Below are positions 16,818 to 27,196 of a stretch of 50,964 bases of DNA, piece after piece. Every line of letters starts with the position of its first letter. The stretch's first letter is position 1. Position numbers and translations under genes: made by a program. Source of the stretch: Candidatus Poseidoniales archaeon (GTDB lineage Archaea > Thermoplasmatota > Poseidoniia > Poseidoniales > Poseidoniaceae); contig QXYA01000101.1 of assembly GCA_009887135.1 (NCBI GenBank), positions 1 through 50,964 on the forward strand, read 5' to 3'. The notes below the pieces were generated by a model that saw only the letters and a program-made list of their open reading frames with translations, did no database searches and had not been told where the DNA came from.

Positions 16818-16827
16818 GGCGATTTTG

Positions 16828-18003
16828 GTGATTCAAAAAGGTCTAGATCAATGGTTCCTTCGCCAGGATGTCATCGATCAATTGCTCCAAAGTGGGGATG
16901 ATGACCTTGAAGGAATCAACGCTTATGCCGACAGAATCATGATGATCGCTCAAACTGAAGAGGCTGAGCATCAAACACTTGACGACCCATTTGACAGAAG
17001 CGTAGCCTTAGTCATGTCTTTGGTTGGTAGTGAAGGATTAGATGCTTGGAATATTGATTTGACCAGTTTTCTGAAACAATTTACAAATCGGGTAAAATCC
17101 CAGGCGAGCGATTTGGATTTACCTGCCTGTGGCCGACTTATTCGTATGGCATGGGAAGTGCTTCATCACCAAGCCGCTCTACTTTTCGATCGTGTACAGT
17201 ATCAAGATCAAGGGGACGAATGGGATACAGGTTTTGATTTCGGTTGGGAAGCAGAGTATGATGACCAAGAATTTCACTTTACCAACACTGTTCTCCAAGG
17301 TGATGCTGACGATGTACTTGCAGGGCTTTTTGATGAGCGAGTACGTCGTGAAGAAGGGCGCCCAGTCACATTAGGTGAACTTCTATCGGCACTAAAGGAT
17401 GCGGCTGAAGATGCTGATGCGATTAAACAACGTGAGGTGAATAGAGCTGTGCATGCAGTCGAATTAGAAGACATGCTCTCGAATGTCGGGGGACGAATGC
17501 ACAATGAAGATTTAGATGGAGATATTGAGCGATGCTGGACAGCTCTTCGTCAAACTACTCAATCAATGGAATCGGATAATGTTCCTCTTTCAGAAGTGAT
17601 GAACGCTCTGCGGCCGATCTTAGAATTGACATTCGGAGTAATTCCTGAAGGTTATGAAAAGGATGCCAAGGTGAGTTCCTTCATTGCCGGATTGTTCCTC
17701 ACTCACAAGGGGATTGCTTCCATTACACAAGGGAATGGGGTTACAGACGTCATTATGATTGAAGATCTGTGGCCACAACTAGGTACCTTTTCTGAAGTCA
17801 TTGAAGCGAGCCAGGAAGAAGATGAAGTGTCTTTAACAAAACGTGAAGACGCCAAAACGGGTTCTATGCTCCATGCTGAGAGATTGCAATTAAGGGCTGA
17901 GAAGGCACGTGAGGCAGAAGAAAAACAGCGCCTGAAGAGGGAGAAGGAACTTCTCCATGAACAACATAAGGTCGATGAAAATCTTGACTGGCTTGTTGAA
18001 TGA
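16828..18003 (+). CDS. scpA: ScpA-like segregation/condensation protein (kleisin)
   Basis: Immediately after smc and before scpB; N-terminal 'DPFDRSVALVMSLVGSEGLDAWNIDLTSFLKQF' is ScpA-like; GTG at 16828 (or TTG at 16825). Confidence 0.87.
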   Translation: MIQKGLDQWFLRQDVIDQLLQSGDDDLEGINAYADRIMMIAQTEEAEHQTLDDPFDRSVALVMSLVGSEGLDAWNIDLTSFLKQFTNRVKSQASDLDLPACGRLIRMAWEVLHHQAALLFDRVQYQDQGDEWDTGFDFGWEAEYDDQEFHFTNTVLQGDADDVLAGLFDERVRREEGRPVTLGELLSALKDAAEDADAIKQREVNRAVHAVELEDMLSNVGGRMHNEDLDGDIERCWTALRQTTQSMESDNVPLSEVMNALRPILELTFGVIPEGYEKDAKVSSFIAGLFLTHKGIASITQGNGVTDVIMIEDLWPQLGTFSEVIEASQEEDEVSLTKREDAKTGSMLHAERLQLRAEKAREAEEKQRLKREKELLHEQHKVDENLDWLVE

Positions 18004-18615: not shown

Positions 18616-19911
18616 TTAAGCACGATATGCTTCAAGTATCTCTGAAACTTTAGTTTGAGTAATTGGTCCATCGTGTTCAATCAAGAGTTTCGCAACATCC
18701 TCTATTTCTTTACCTTCTGCACCAGCACTGACGGCCATATTCCTTGCGTGGAGTCTCATGTGACCTTTCTGTATCCCGCTTGTAGCAAGTGCTCTAAGGG
18801 CTCCTAGATTCTGAGCAAGTCCTGCTGCAGCCATCACTGAAGCGAGTTCTTGAGCAGATTCAACACCGAGAATTTCGAGGTTCGTTCGGGCAACAGGATG
18901 TACTTTGGAGGCGCCTCCAACAATCCCAACCGCCATAGGCGTCTCAATTGAACCAACCAGATTACCTTCTGAATCAAGTTCCCAGTGAGTCATGGATCCA
19001 TATCTGCCTTGTGAATAGGCAACATACGCATGACAGCCTGCTTCGATTGCTCTCCAATCTTGGCCACATGCTACAGCAACGGCTGATATGCCGTTCATGA
19101 CGCCTTTGTTATGCGTTGCAGCCCTGTATGGGTCTGCAACTGCAAAATGGTATGCTTCAAGTATGCCTTCAATGATTTTGGAACCATCGAGTTTTTCCCC
19201 GGAGTTACTAATTTCCTCCGGAGTGAACGTAGCCCTTACACGTGCAAGTCTTTCAGTGGCTAGATTGCTTAGAATCCGTAACAAAGCCCTCCCATTGGTT
19301 ATTCGTTCGAGTTCTGGTGCCAGGAGTTCAGCCATTGTATTGACGGCGTTTGCCCCCATCGCATCTCTGCAGTCTACGTGAATGTGGACGATAAACATCT
19401 GTCCCGAGAGAGTTTCTATGCTTCGAGTTGTGATATCTTTGCATCCTCCTCCTAGACGTACCATGGTCGAAGGTAAGCTGTTTGCCAATTTGATTAAGGT
19501 ATCCTTATTCTCAAGAACTCCTTGTTTTGCCTCATCATGATCGTCAATATCTAGGAGTTGAATTTGAGCAATCATCATTGGTCCATCATTGCTTGATGTG
19601 AAACCTCCATGCACATGACAACGCTTAGCCATGTTCGATGCAGCAGCGACAACGCTTGATTCTTCAAGACAAAATGGGATGACATAGTGCTTTTCGTCGA
19701 TGATGAAGTTTGTTGCAACCCCGACTGGGAGGGACATCGTTCCAATGACATTCTCAATCATTCGATCTGCTGCACTATCGTCCAGTTCTCCGTTTTTCGC
19801 TAACGCAGCAACTTGTTCAGGGAGAAGATTAGAACTTTCTGCAATAAGTTGTCGTCGTTCAATGACAGACAGTTTGTAGAATCCTTTCAAGCGGCTGTTA
19901 TTGACAGGCAT
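18616..19911 (-). CDS. mvaA: Hydroxymethylglutaryl-CoA reductase, class II type
   Basis: 'LPVGVATNFIIDEKHYVIPFCLEESSVVAAASNMAKRC', 'HVDCRDAMGANAVNTMAE', 'HNKGVMNGISAVAVACGQDWRAIEAGCHAYV'; start set at MPVNNSRL. Confidence 0.95.
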   Translation of the reverse strand: MPVNNSRLKGFYKLSVIERRQLIAESSNLLPEQVAALAKNGELDDSAADRMIENVIGTMSLPVGVATNFIIDEKHYVIPFCLEESSVVAAASNMAKRCHVHGGFTSSNDGPMMIAQIQLLDIDDHDEAKQGVLENKDTLIKLANSLPSTMVRLGGGCKDITTRSIETLSGQMFIVHIHVDCRDAMGANAVNTMAELLAPELERITNGRALLRILSNLATERLARVRATFTPEEISNSGEKLDGSKIIEGILEAYHFAVADPYRAATHNKGVMNGISAVAVACGQDWRAIEAGCHAYVAYSQGRYGSMTHWELDSEGNLVGSIETPMAVGIVGGASKVHPVARTNLEILGVESAQELASVMAAAGLAQNLGALRALATSGIQKGHMRLHARNMAVSAGAEGKEIEDVAKLLIEHDGPITQTKVSEILEAYRA

Positions 19912-19967
19912 AGTCTCTCTCCCCGTGCGAGCCAGATGTTCTTGAAACATCAACCAATCGGAACAAG

Positions 19968-20059
19968 TTAACGCGTTTAACGCTTTAATTAACGCGTTAA
20001 AAAAGCGTTAATGGTGCGTTAATAGGGGTTGTTTATAGATTCTCGTCGTCGGATTAACG
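19968..20059. promoter_or_regulatory. Cluster of TTAACGC / GCGTTAA boxes arranged around the palindrome TTAACGCGTTAA
   Basis: Forward boxes start at 19968, 19977, 19989; reverse boxes end at 20000, 20011, 20022; degenerate ATTAACG at 20053-20059; lies between divergent mvaA and the AAA+ gene. Confidence 0.85.
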
Positions 20060-20092
20060 TGTCCTAACAGGTCTCTCATAGCCCCAAATTCC

Positions 20093-21835
20093 ATGAAAGG
20101 TCATATACTTGTTCGAAGTTGCTCGTACATGCATACTGGAACGGTTGATTTGCGACTACCAAGTCTCCGAAAAGATCCCTTTTCCCAAGGAGCTATCTCG
20201 GCAAAGGAGTCCAACCTTCTTGTTGGAAGGCACTCACACTTCGAAGAGATGGAGAAGAATATCCAATTCAAATCATCTCGAAGGATTCTTCTTGTAGGCG
20301 AATATGGGTCTGGGAAGACTTCATTCGTCAACTGTATTGGCGGTAAGACAAATTTGCACATCCATGTTGACCGAATTGATACAATGAATCCTGGTTTGGA
20401 GTTACTTCGAGATATTTATTCCCAAGTTGTTAATGCCACAGCGCCTAATGATCATAAAAAACTTGAACGAGAACTTGAAGCCTCTCTTCACAACAAAAGA
20501 AATTACTTGCCGTTAATATCAGTTGATGCTGATATGGCTAATATTGCTTCTTTAGAGGCTTGCTTACTGGCCTCAATGCCCTTTTTCGAACGTTTATCTG
20601 CATTGATTGTTGTAGCCGTCAATCCAAATCAAAAATCTCTTCTCTCTGAACAGATAAGAGAACGTTTCGAAGTAAGACTGATGCAGGAATTGGATGTAGA
20701 TTGTGTAAAAGCCCTTGTTGAACGCCGAATTGCGACGTGTTCAAACGAACCCTATCAGATGACTACAGAGGAAGCTGGAAAGGTATTGGCTGCGAGCCGA
20801 AACGGTCATCCAGGATCTATTATCAAAGTTCTACGAGCCGTAATTGATGGTCAGATGTTACCTGAATTACCAAGGAGTTCGATTGCAGAACAGACCGTCA
20901 TCGAACAAATTGCCCCCCCCACTCCTCAAGAAGTTGATGCGAGCCCTTTCAATCAGGAAGAGGAACTACTCGATGAACTTGAATCAGCGGGAATTCCTGA
21001 GCAAGAAGAAGAAACAGATGTCCAAGCTACCGATGAGTGGGAGGATGGGCCTGGTATGTCTGGTACCATGGGCTTTGATCTCAATCTCGAATCACTTGAA
21101 GAACCAATTATGGAGGAAACTAAGGAGAAGCCCATTGAGGATACATATGTGACTGAAGACAGTTTACAACCAGTTGGTATCTTTGGAGGACTTAGAGGTC
21201 GTTGGAAACAGACCAGCCAGTCGATAAACGAGGCAGAAGAACCGGAAGGCGAGTATAAACAACTCGATGGTGCTAATTCCTTATGGGTGAGCAAAGACTC
21301 ACTTACGTTACAGGACGATTCTGAAGAGGATGTTTTAGAGGTTGTAGACGATCAAGAACCTGAAGATCTCATACCGGATTCCTTTGAGTCCGACTACCAA
21401 CAGATGGTTGAAGAAAACACTCCTCTGCCAAACCAATCGATGTTGGAAACACTTACCGATTTACTCTCAAAACTTCTTTCTCCCTCAGGAGATAATACGG
21501 TTTCGAACAAGCTTGCTGAAAGCCTACAAACTCTTTCTCGCCCCAAAATAGGAACTAAAGCAGAACATCCTCTAAAAGTCCAAGTTCTGACATCACTCAC
21601 GAATGCAGAGACGATTGTTGTTTCAATCGCTCAACAACGAACGATATCTCCTTCCGACAAACAGTTGTTGGAGAAATTGAACATTAAACGAGCAAGACTG
21701 TCACAGATTTGTAATCGATTACACAAAGCAGGCATACTTGATGTAAGGATGGTTGGACGGTCGAGAATGTTTGGTCTAACCCGAACAGCACTTGCCCAAA
21801 TGATGGCATGGGGCCTCGTAGGAGGTGATGTGTGA
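20093..21835 (+). CDS. AAA+/Orc-like ATPase with acidic linker and C-terminal winged-helix (MarR-like) domain
   Basis: Walker A 'LLVGEYGSGKTS', Walker B-like 'LPLISVDAD', arginine-rich sensor region 'SEQIRERFEVRLMQEL', acidic ~200 aa linker, C-terminal HTH 'LLEKLNIKRARLSQICNRLHKAGILDVRMVGRSRMFGLT'; start may be ATG 20129. Confidence 0.82.
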   Translation: MKGHILVRSCSYMHTGTVDLRLPSLRKDPFSQGAISAKESNLLVGRHSHFEEMEKNIQFKSSRRILLVGEYGSGKTSFVNCIGGKTNLHIHVDRIDTMNPGLELLRDIYSQVVNATAPNDHKKLERELEASLHNKRNYLPLISVDADMANIASLEACLLASMPFFERLSALIVVAVNPNQKSLLSEQIRERFEVRLMQELDVDCVKALVERRIATCSNEPYQMTTEEAGKVLAASRNGHPGSIIKVLRAVIDGQMLPELPRSSIAEQTVIEQIAPPTPQEVDASPFNQEEELLDELESAGIPEQEEETDVQATDEWEDGPGMSGTMGFDLNLESLEEPIMEETKEKPIEDTYVTEDSLQPVGIFGGLRGRWKQTSQSINEAEEPEGEYKQLDGANSLWVSKDSLTLQDDSEEDVLEVVDDQEPEDLIPDSFESDYQQMVEENTPLPNQSMLETLTDLLSKLLSPSGDNTVSNKLAESLQTLSRPKIGTKAEHPLKVQVLTSLTNAETIVVSIAQQRTISPSDKQLLEKLNIKRARLSQICNRLHKAGILDVRMVGRSRMFGLTRTALAQMMAWGLVGGDV

Positions 21836-22872
21836 TGTCTTGGACAGTTTCATGGTCTTGGCAAGCCCCATCGCGGATTAGTGCAATAGCCGTAATAGAT
21901 GGTCAACTTGCAGTAGCCTATGGTTTGGATTTGATTCTCTTTAATGAGTCCAATGAGATCCAATGGAAGCAAACAATGCCGTTCAAGGTTCACGCTATTT
22001 GTAATGGTGAAGGGACAATTGGTATCCTAGCAGCACACGGTTTCTTTGTTCTGAAAACAGTTGATGGGACCATGCTCCACGAAGGTAGAAGCAGCCCAGG
22101 TGGCTTCTTGCACCTTCTTCATCGACCAGGAGGAGGATGGATTCTTTCTGGGAGAGATGGAAATCTCCACCTTTTCGATTCAAATGGTAAAGGAATTCGC
22201 AGAATTTCCTCTGGGATTGTTCGAAGACTTGTCGGATGGCTAGATCGGGAACATTTGCTATGGCAATCTTCTGAAGGAGTTATTTTATGTGGGCAAATCG
22301 CTAACCAAGACAAACGTAGAGTCATTGATACAACAGTTTGGAGTTGGTGCTCTTTGCTTATGGATGGCCGATTGCTTCTGTTATCTTCCGATGGTCAATT
22401 GTGGGAAGGAACCCCCCATCCATTTGGATGGGATTCCATGAATCGAGTTGAAACAGATTCTCTGGAACCTCTCATGGCTACAAGGGCAGGAGATGGATGG
22501 TGGGTGCTCGGAATTGAAGGGCATCTTGACCATTTAGCTACTGAAAACGAATTATCTCGAATAGGAGATGGTATGGAACTTGGCGATTTACTTCTACGAT
22601 TAGGCCGTAATTCGATGATTACTGCTCGTAGAGATGGTTTGACAAGACGTTGGGTTGATCCTGCTCTTGCAGAAGAAGAAAAGCGGCACAGGCATCAAGA
22701 AGCAGCAGATGCGAAACTTGCTCGTAGCTGGGAAGAACGACGAACATTGTTCCAGAGAGCACAAACTGCAGAGGATGAAGGTCGCCTTTCACGAGCGATC
22801 GAATTGTATGAAGCTCTTGGTAGAAAAGACGACGTAAAGCGTCTCTTAGGGCGACAAAAAGGTGGTGATTGA
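21835..22872 (+). CDS. Beta-propeller-like protein with helical C-terminus
   Basis: Repeated 'GxxxVLSGRDGNLHLFDSNGK / LLLLSSDGQLWE / WWVLGIEGHLDHL' blades, then 'LFQRAQTAEDEGRLSRAIELYEALGRKDDVKRLL' (TPR-like); translationally coupled to the AAA gene (TGATG). Confidence 0.75.
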   Translation: MSWTVSWSWQAPSRISAIAVIDGQLAVAYGLDLILFNESNEIQWKQTMPFKVHAICNGEGTIGILAAHGFFVLKTVDGTMLHEGRSSPGGFLHLLHRPGGGWILSGRDGNLHLFDSNGKGIRRISSGIVRRLVGWLDREHLLWQSSEGVILCGQIANQDKRRVIDTTVWSWCSLLMDGRLLLLSSDGQLWEGTPHPFGWDSMNRVETDSLEPLMATRAGDGWWVLGIEGHLDHLATENELSRIGDGMELGDLLLRLGRNSMITARRDGLTRRWVDPALAEEEKRHRHQEAADAKLARSWEERRTLFQRAQTAEDEGRLSRAIELYEALGRKDDVKRLLGRQKGGD

Positions 22873-23169
22873 ATGGATCCAGGGAAAACGTTGACCGAAG
22901 AGCGAGTTGAACATTATCTCTCAATTACTCGAAAAGCCCGTGAAAAAGCAACACCGCTCGTTCAAGAAGGAAGTCCAGAAGCGGACATGCTCAACACATT
23001 GTTATCTATGGCCGATGACTATTCTTCCGATGCTCAATATTTCTTGAAACAGGGCGATTTCATACGAGCCTTTGGAGCAATAAATTACGCCCATGCCTGG
23101 ATTGACGCTGGAGTTAAATTACGCCTACTAGATGGGCATGGTGATGACGTATTGTTTACGCTACCATAG
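22873..23169 (+). CDS. DUF357-family protein
   Basis: 'VEHYLSITRKAREKA...MLNTLLSMADDYSSDAQYFLKQGDFIRAFGAINYAHAWIDAGVKLRLL' matches the archaeal DUF357 pattern; directly abuts the propeller gene. Confidence 0.87.
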   Translation: MDPGKTLTEERVEHYLSITRKAREKATPLVQEGSPEADMLNTLLSMADDYSSDAQYFLKQGDFIRAFGAINYAHAWIDAGVKLRLLDGHGDDVLFTLP

Positions 23170-23575
23170 ATTCTGAACCTTGTTCATTGGAAATAGAATG
23201 TACGATATTTTTGACTGTATCGATCCCACAAAGGATATCTTTGGCGCGAACTTGTGCAATTTGTATAAATGGCATAAGAGATTGTTCTAATGTGTGTCTC
23301 AAACGATACATGTGAGCAGGTCTCCCGCGATTGCTCTGATTAATAGCACTATGAACAATAAGGTTCATTTCACGAAGTTCATTAATGGCGATACTTACAT
23401 CAGGTTGGCGTAAATGACACTTTGTTTGCAGATCTCTGGATGTCGATGCTCCATGATAATGGAGGCATGTAAGGACAGTGGCCGTATGTGCTTGTATTCC
23501 GAGTTCAATTAGTTGTTTACAAAGAGAGTTATGTAGGATTTTAGAAGGTCTATTGACAGTTGTAGGTTCATCCAT
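23156..23575 (-). CDS. Winged-helix transcriptional regulator (TrmB/MarR-like)
   Basis: 'LGIQAHTATVLTCLHYHGASTSRDLQTKCHLRQPDVSIAINELREMNLIVHSAINQSNRGRPAHMYRL'. Confidence 0.8.
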   Translation of the reverse strand: MDEPTTVNRPSKILHNSLCKQLIELGIQAHTATVLTCLHYHGASTSRDLQTKCHLRQPDVSIAINELREMNLIVHSAINQSNRGRPAHMYRLRHTLEQSLMPFIQIAQVRAKDILCGIDTVKNIVHSISNEQGSESMVA

Positions 23576-25944: not shown

Positions 25945-27129
25945 TCATCCGTTCAGTTTTTTGACAACACGGCCTTCAATTCTGGCAGCAACATCCATTG
26001 GAAGGGCATGCGGCATCGAGATATGGGTCGTTCTTCCACGACCATCACCAACAGTATCTACGCGAGTGTCAATAATGCTCAACCCCTCAATTATTTTGAG
26101 ATATTTCCAAACTGTTGTGTGGCTTCTAGGCTTTACTTCGTATTCTTCACAAACGACCGTGTACATCGATTCTACATCTTTACTTGTCATGAATTCAGTT
26201 TTGCGTAGGCGTCGGCAAATACCCAAAAGAACCAGCATCGGATGGCCTGTTAACTCATCAAGAACATCTTCAGGCATGACCTGAGGTATGGCTTTAGCCC
26301 GTGTTTGAACATGTTCTGGCTCGAGCATGGATTTCCCGTCAGACTCCGCATGTTCGACAGCACCATTGAGTAATTCGATGACTTGACGCGCATCGCCAGA
26401 AGGTGCTGCAGAAGTGGCAATAAGTTTGAGAATTTCTTCAGTCCATGATTGTGGGTTCAGTGCAGCTTCTGCTCGCTGACGAGTAATCGCTAGTAAACCG
26501 TCGTAATCATATGATGGAATCGGCAAATGGTTCGTGTGTCCAAAGCGAGAGATGACTGCATTTTCGAGTACATCAAGAACCTGCTCTTGACTGATTAGAA
26601 TAAGAGAAATCGTCCCACTACCTTCCTGATCTTCATCAATACGAAGGAGTTGGTAAATCAGATCGTTTCCAGATTTTCGCAGCAGGTGATCAACCTCATC
26701 GAGTACAATAATCAGATGTCGTTCATTTGAGCGTAGTAGGCGTCGAAGGCTGTTGAGCAACTCGCCCATTGAAAGTCCTCTATCCGGATGCCCTGCATCC
26801 AATGTCTGAACAATACGTTGTGCGACTCGGACATTTGTTGTTGCATTCCTACAATTGATGTGGACGCTTCTAATCTGACGTTTATTTCTTAGATGATGTT
26901 CAATATCACGACAAAAAGTCCTAGCAAGTAATGTCTTACCACTTCCGACTGGTCCCGTGATGACAACGTTAGCACTACTGTTTGGATGGGATATCGAATG
27001 AAACTTTGCAGCGAGGTTACTTTGAATCTCTCCGCGCCCGACCATCGCTTCTGGCATGAAATCAAAATCCAACGGACCAGGGTCTAGAAGGATAAGACCA
27101 GAACCAATTCGATCAAGGTAGTCGCTCAT
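25945..27129 (-). CDS. cdc6: Orc1/Cdc6 replication initiator
   Basis: 'VVITGPVGSGKTLLARTFCRDIE', 'LIIVLDEVDHLL', C-terminal winged helix. Confidence 0.93.
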   Translation of the reverse strand: MSDYLDRIGSGLILLDPGPLDFDFMPEAMVGRGEIQSNLAAKFHSISHPNSSANVVITGPVGSGKTLLARTFCRDIEHHLRNKRQIRSVHINCRNATTNVRVAQRIVQTLDAGHPDRGLSMGELLNSLRRLLRSNERHLIIVLDEVDHLLRKSGNDLIYQLLRIDEDQEGSGTISLILISQEQVLDVLENAVISRFGHTNHLPIPSYDYDGLLAITRQRAEAALNPQSWTEEILKLIATSAAPSGDARQVIELLNGAVEHAESDGKSMLEPEHVQTRAKAIPQVMPEDVLDELTGHPMLVLLGICRRLRKTEFMTSKDVESMYTVVCEEYEVKPRSHTTVWKYLKIIEGLSIIDTRVDTVGDGRGRTTHISMPHALPMDVAARIEGRVVKKLNG

Positions 27130-27196
27130 GCTGATTGGCTCTTGTCGCCAACCGTTCTTGAACACTCGTACTCAATCAAGAATGAAAAGTAGAGTC

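Follow-up and report, generated by a model that had tools for sequence, protein, structure and literature searches.

The intergenic region upstream of an AAA+/winged-helix gene in a Poseidoniaceae (Marine Group II) archaeon carries a box array (O1) and a second site (O2) that together probably form a composite site of the gene's promoter, bound by the AAA+/winged-helix protein, which would thus control its own gene. The host belongs to the Poseidoniales, which are abundant, uncultured archaea of the ocean. We analyzed a stretch of 50,964 nucleotides (the window) and compared the locus with its counterparts in relatives.

Results

All positions given in the original prediction for the boxes, for the palindrome, and for an ATTAACG at 20053 were verified in the sequence (Table 1). 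O1 consists of six exact TTAACGC/GCGTTAA boxes within 55 bp and lies in the 217-bp intergenic region (19912–20128) separating the HMG-CoA reductase (HMGR) gene from the AAA+ gene. Six boxes in 60 bp far exceed chance, as neither 200 simulated Markov windows of 51 kb nor 20,000 Markov copies of the intergenic region held more than 2 boxes in that span. The helical phasing that had been proposed for the array as a whole is strict only in its right half, where the reverse boxes are spaced by exactly 11 bp, whereas the forward boxes are spaced by 9 and 12 bp. Likewise, the ATTAACG at 20053 is present but is not isolated, being half of a second conserved site, O2, the two boxes of which are 10 bp apart and which is 59 bp from the O1 palindrome center. 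A lone GCGTTAA upstream of smc (12910), which had been suggested as a weak site, is not kept in either of two relatives, G033 and G053.

Table 1. Features at the array locus (window coordinates)
Feature	Position	Strand	Remarks
HMGR gene	18616–19911	-	431 aa from ATG 19911; Pfam PF00368
Conserved block CGATTGMTTSAWGG	19950–19961	-	∼41–52 nt upstream of HMGR ATG
Box array O1	19968–20022	.	Exact boxes; conserved in genus, family, and order
O1 boxes B1–B3, TTAACGC	start 19968, 19977, 19989	+	
O1 boxes B4–B6, GCGTTAA	19994–20000, 20005–20011, 20016–20022		
O1 palindrome TTAACGCGTTAA	19989–20000		Center between 19994 and 19995
Second site O2	20054–20071	+	Two degenerate boxes: TTAACG at 20054, cTAACAGG at 20064
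TATA-like element of AAA+ gene, gtcatatact	20100–20109	+	Preceded by BRE-like tgaaag
AAA+/winged-helix gene	20129–21835	+	568 aa; proposed binder
ORF346	21832–22872	+	346 aa; no Pfam or NCBIfam match
MreA/Lrs14/Sta1-like HTH regulator	23156–23575	-	Below NCBIfam cut-offs
Second cdc6 (cdc6-2)	25945–27165	-	More diverged paralogue; matches cdc6 models

The gene order in the window is smc, an ORF in the scpA position, scpB, HMGR (minus strand), the array, and the AAA+/winged-helix gene, followed by ORF346 and a DUF357 gene (both plus strand), the MreA/Lrs14-like regulator, a PIN-like protein, aIF2-gamma, S6e, and the second cdc6. The ORF at 16825–18003 has no significant family match, and its scpA name rests on its position. 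HMGR is the divergent partner of the AAA+ gene at all loci where this could be read, and ORF346, DUF357, PIN, and ScpB are kept in all 35 divergent full-length loci. ORF346 always lies downstream of the AAA+ gene and is the better conserved of the two.

The array is conserved in relatives at every level compared, from the genus and the family to both families of the order Poseidoniales. It was found upstream of the AAA+ gene in same-genus genomes wherever the region was readable, in 70 of 71 loci with a placeable HMGR (the remaining locus is a run of N), and, in the order's other family (f2), in all 23 loci; these locus sets overlap in part. Because the AAA+ proteins at array-bearing loci fall to an identity of ∼25–30%, the site in the DNA has been retained while most of the protein sequence changed. 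Of 144 genomes sampled from the class, 122 have the AAA+ gene, and those without it comprise at least 19 genomes of a sister family (among those listed), G050, and two further genomes. Since G050 also lacks HMGR, its assembly probably just omits the locus. In the sister family, HMGR was present in 9 of 10 genomes tested, and no tandem box pair was found in four genomes tested, all of which have HMGR. The array and the AAA+ gene are present or absent together. At one locus (L040, in genome G025) all boxes have shifted together to CGTTAC with the 11-bp spacing kept, apparently a case of co-evolution, and at another (L046) the boxes have changed in the same way to ACGTTAA; such concerted drift, seen in some genera, suggests that a single protein reads all of the boxes.

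The geometry of the region was examined in a gap-free footprint alignment of 44 non-redundant Poseidoniaceae loci anchored on the palindrome. The O1 footprint has the consensus TTAACGsgtTTAACGcttwaayTAACGCGTTAAwwatgCGTTAAwwatgCGTTAA and is followed by ∼30 bp of unconserved spacer, by O2 (GaTTAACrtsncnTAACrsgt), by another ∼20 bp of unconserved spacer, and then by gtgAAACATcATATACt; the mean information per column in these five segments is 1.15, 0.23, 0.94, 0.17 (second spacer), and 1.02 bits (TATA), respectively. Of 58 loci, 50 have O2 at 59 bp from the palindrome center, the others reflecting alternative palindrome picks (most of them, 10–21 bp away) or 1-bp shifts; O2 is in turn separated from the TATA-like element by 46 bp in 47 of the 58 and by 45 bp in 10. 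The spacers thus keep their length without keeping their sequence, which is what a protein complex of fixed geometry would demand. In f2, the first box lies 129–131 bp from O2 in all 14 loci with a recognized O2, so that the absolute distances differ from those in Poseidoniaceae yet are rigid too. O2 in that family is made up of three boxes, at 0, 22, and 32 bp, and the third enters GCGTGAATATTA, i.e., the BRE/TATA, whereas in Poseidoniaceae O2 lies ∼20 bp upstream of the BRE. The start codon of the AAA+ gene is only 29 nt downstream of the TATA-like element, and its transcript would thus be leaderless or nearly so.

The distances to O2 and the TATA-like element are fixed, while anything between 61 and 139 bp (sd 24) separates the HMGR start codon from the palindrome; it is thus to the AAA+ promoter that the array is tied, not to HMGR. 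The original prediction had offered HMGR (mvaA) as one gene that the array might control, which would make the array an operator for isoprenoid lipid synthesis. Although HMGR is placed divergently, and although B1 lies just ∼6 bp from a conserved block that is probably the HMGR core promoter, so that side effects on HMGR are possible in this genus, B1 is much further from that block in other genera, and the sister family, in the four genomes tested for boxes, keeps HMGR without the array. We thus regard this role as very doubtful. The other gene named in the prediction fares best: the site and the core promoter of this AAA+ gene keep a constant distance, and the array is best read as an operator controlling the AAA operon.

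The AAA+ gene had been taken to start at 20093, but relatives carry in-frame stops between this annotated start and the ATG at 20129, which is therefore the true start. AlphaFold2 modeling with 50 homologues confidently placed an AAA+ fold at residues ∼25–243 and a winged helix at residues ∼484–565 (nt ∼21578–21823), with an acidic, disordered linker between them. In Foldseek searches, the AAA+ part was placed near Orc1/Cdc6, RFC, TnsC, and MuB, and the winged helix fell among MarR/ArsR regulators; the gene next to the site is thus predicted to encode a DNA-binding domain, as an operator bound by its own product would have it. At the sequence level, no Pfam or NCBIfam model scored above cut-off, a PDB sequence search returned nothing significant, PF09079 (Cdc6_C) reached 13.3 bits against a cut-off of 25.1, TIGR02928 (orc1-cdc6) was absent from the matches, and matches to nSTAND1 were weak and limited to 8 of 50 members. 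Because the Walker B glutamate is missing in all 50 members and the Walker A lysine is replaced by arginine in 34 of them, ATP hydrolysis by this protein seems unlikely. In a protein that otherwise evolves fast, the winged helix is conserved best, with a nearly invariant KRxRLSQ, as would suit a domain that reads the conserved box. The protein also has a conserved NPF near its N-terminus and a GxFGGLxxR in the disordered linker, which may be partner-binding motifs.

Wherever the question could be addressed, the array is also the only cluster of its kind. The complete genome G033, one contig of 2.06 Mb in which 15 bases inside the array read N, has one cluster of at least three CGTTAA in 120 bp, at this locus, and so has a contig of 354 kb from f2 (G053:C8). 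Tandem pairs with at most one mismatch occur at this locus only, among the matches listed from 23 same-genus genomes, and scanning G033, G053:C8, and the window with a box profile revealed no second cluster above the shuffled null. With no second cluster, no regulon is visible, and the absence of a second array from the genomes examined makes the AAA+/winged-helix protein look like a local self-regulating factor rather than a global regulator.

A single site that lies beside a winged-helix gene and co-occurs with it also bears on the identity of the binder. The MreA/Lrs14-type HTH regulator encoded nearby (described in the original prediction as TrmB-like) is one candidate if the AAA+ operator is bound by a different regulator encoded elsewhere. 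However, this regulator adjoins the locus in only 6 of 35 divergent array-keeping loci, in some clades only, and is absent from the neighborhood in the other 29, and the single co-occurring site fits self-binding better. Binding by another regulator is thus improbable, and this particular one is an unlikely binder.

A role as a replication origin or initiator-binding site, which had also been raised, is harder still to credit. In its favor, the second cdc6 and the array are ∼6 kb apart in 14 genomes examined for this, and the AAA+ domain is Orc1-like in its predicted fold; the other cdc6 paralogue lies elsewhere. Plain GC skew was too noisy for use; TA skew was computed at third codon positions and corrected for gene strand. 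In G033 its switch points are at about 95 and 1,225 kb, away from the array, which at 695 kb is well inside one arm (this genome contains Ns, and its long-range order was taken as assembled); in G053 it is flat over 354 kb around the array and both cdc6 genes. A scan with the archaeal ORB consensus (PMC4153887) found no ORB-like site in the window at six or fewer mismatches. The TA skew in two relatives and the ORB scan thus both speak against an origin or a terminus at the array, and this candidate was rejected. Sites near cdc6-1 were among the best ORB-like matches in G033 and G053; they lie ∼5 kb from the gene in G033 (L095–L198) and G053:C8 (L325–L342), and the TA skew does not switch there.

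Discussion

Comparative genomics alone has led here to a unique, order-wide cis element of near-base-pair geometry and to a probable binding protein. We propose that the winged helix of the AAA+/winged-helix protein would read GCGTTAA boxes about one helical turn apart and that neighboring copies would contact each other through AAA+ domains that probably bind but do not hydrolyze ATP. The resulting nucleoprotein complex could grow from O1 to O2, beside or over the BRE/TATA, and would there set transcription of the AAA+ gene, most likely by repression. The idea first proposed, that a protein binds cooperatively to the phased array beside this gene, is well supported by conservation, and neither of the two outcomes named as refuting it, loss of the boxes in relatives and equally dense clusters at other loci, was seen. 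Repression is favored because the O2 boxes enter the BRE/TATA in f2, and the protein is thus probably an autorepressor, perhaps one that acts without hydrolyzing ATP; in Poseidoniaceae, the position of O2 upstream of the BRE could suit an activator as well as a repressor. Against this reading, conservation of the whole array exceeds what simple autoregulation usually needs.

The stake is whether the protein is a simple autoregulator or the array an archaeal chromosome-organizing site next to smc-scpAB. In the latter case, the AAA+/winged-helix protein would build a filament or platform on the array that anchors or segregates the chromosome or loads SMC, with autoregulation as a by-product, as at SegB, AspA, or ParR sites; a segregation site was among the roles first suggested for the array. 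This is unlikely on present evidence, but it is the alternative to which we give the most weight. Each genome that allowed a judgment has a single array; smc, scpA, and scpB adjoin it in the window, and ScpB does so throughout the divergent full-length loci; and several of the proteins matched by the predicted AAA+ fold (Orc1, RFC, TnsC, and MuB) assemble on DNA. However, no ParA/SegA-type partner, i.e., no such Walker ATPase beside a DNA-binding gene, was found among the neighboring ORFs scanned against Pfam, and a site so rigidly tied to the TATA box suggests a role in transcription. Moreover, the array lies mid-replichore by skew, unlike bacterial parS sites, which cluster near the origin. 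A more specific version, in which the array is the single centromere-like or SMC-loading site of the Poseidoniales chromosome where the degenerate, non-hydrolyzing protein nucleates, spreads or bridges, and recruits SMC-ScpAB, again with autoregulation as a by-product, is slightly less likely still. The array and the protein are small enough for in vitro work.

A literature search found nothing on the box motif or on the AAA+ gene in Poseidoniales. By its distribution, the site is a composite element, shared across the order, in the promoter of an unstudied family of AAA+/winged-helix genes, and it has no description in the literature searched. The autoregulatory site that we favor has partial counterparts in several known systems. 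The parC/ParR system of plasmid R1 also has autoregulatory arrays of repeats spaced by 11 bp at the promoter of the operon that they control, and in this it resembles O1; ParR, however, is a ribbon-helix-helix protein that works with an actin-like ATPase. MalT-type STAND regulators are likewise ATP-binding oligomers whose HTH reads arrays of short asymmetric sites, but they differ from the protein described here in domain order and HTH type. Orc1/Cdc6 shares the arrangement of an AAA+ domain followed by a winged helix, as well as binding sites (ORBs) near its own gene, whereas here no Cdc6 lid or C-terminal model rises above cut-off, the linker is long and disordered, the box is different, and there is no skew switch at the site.

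Two archaeal segregation systems also have sites upstream of their own cassette or gene (PMC5120986), a point in favor of a centromere-like role of the array. As described in excerpts of that 2016 review, SegB of the Sulfolobus SegAB system binds DNA at palindromic sites that directly precede segA, in its own cassette, and whether these serve as centromere or operator was then open. SegB, however, is not an AAA+ protein and is paired with a ParA-type ATPase, a partner not found here, and the excerpts describe no six-box array comparable to O1 (PMC5120986). AspA of the AspA-ParBA system of pNOB8 is, according to the same excerpts, a winged-helix protein that binds a palindrome upstream of its own gene and spreads from it, multimerizing along the DNA (PMC5120986). 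It differs in that AspA is a plasmid-encoded protein of 93 aa with one 23-bp site and with ParB and ParA partners, whereas here one large chromosomal AAA+/winged-helix protein would act on multiple 7-bp boxes. The array is thus best seen as a variation on known autoregulatory multi-box sites, with a modest chance that it is something larger.
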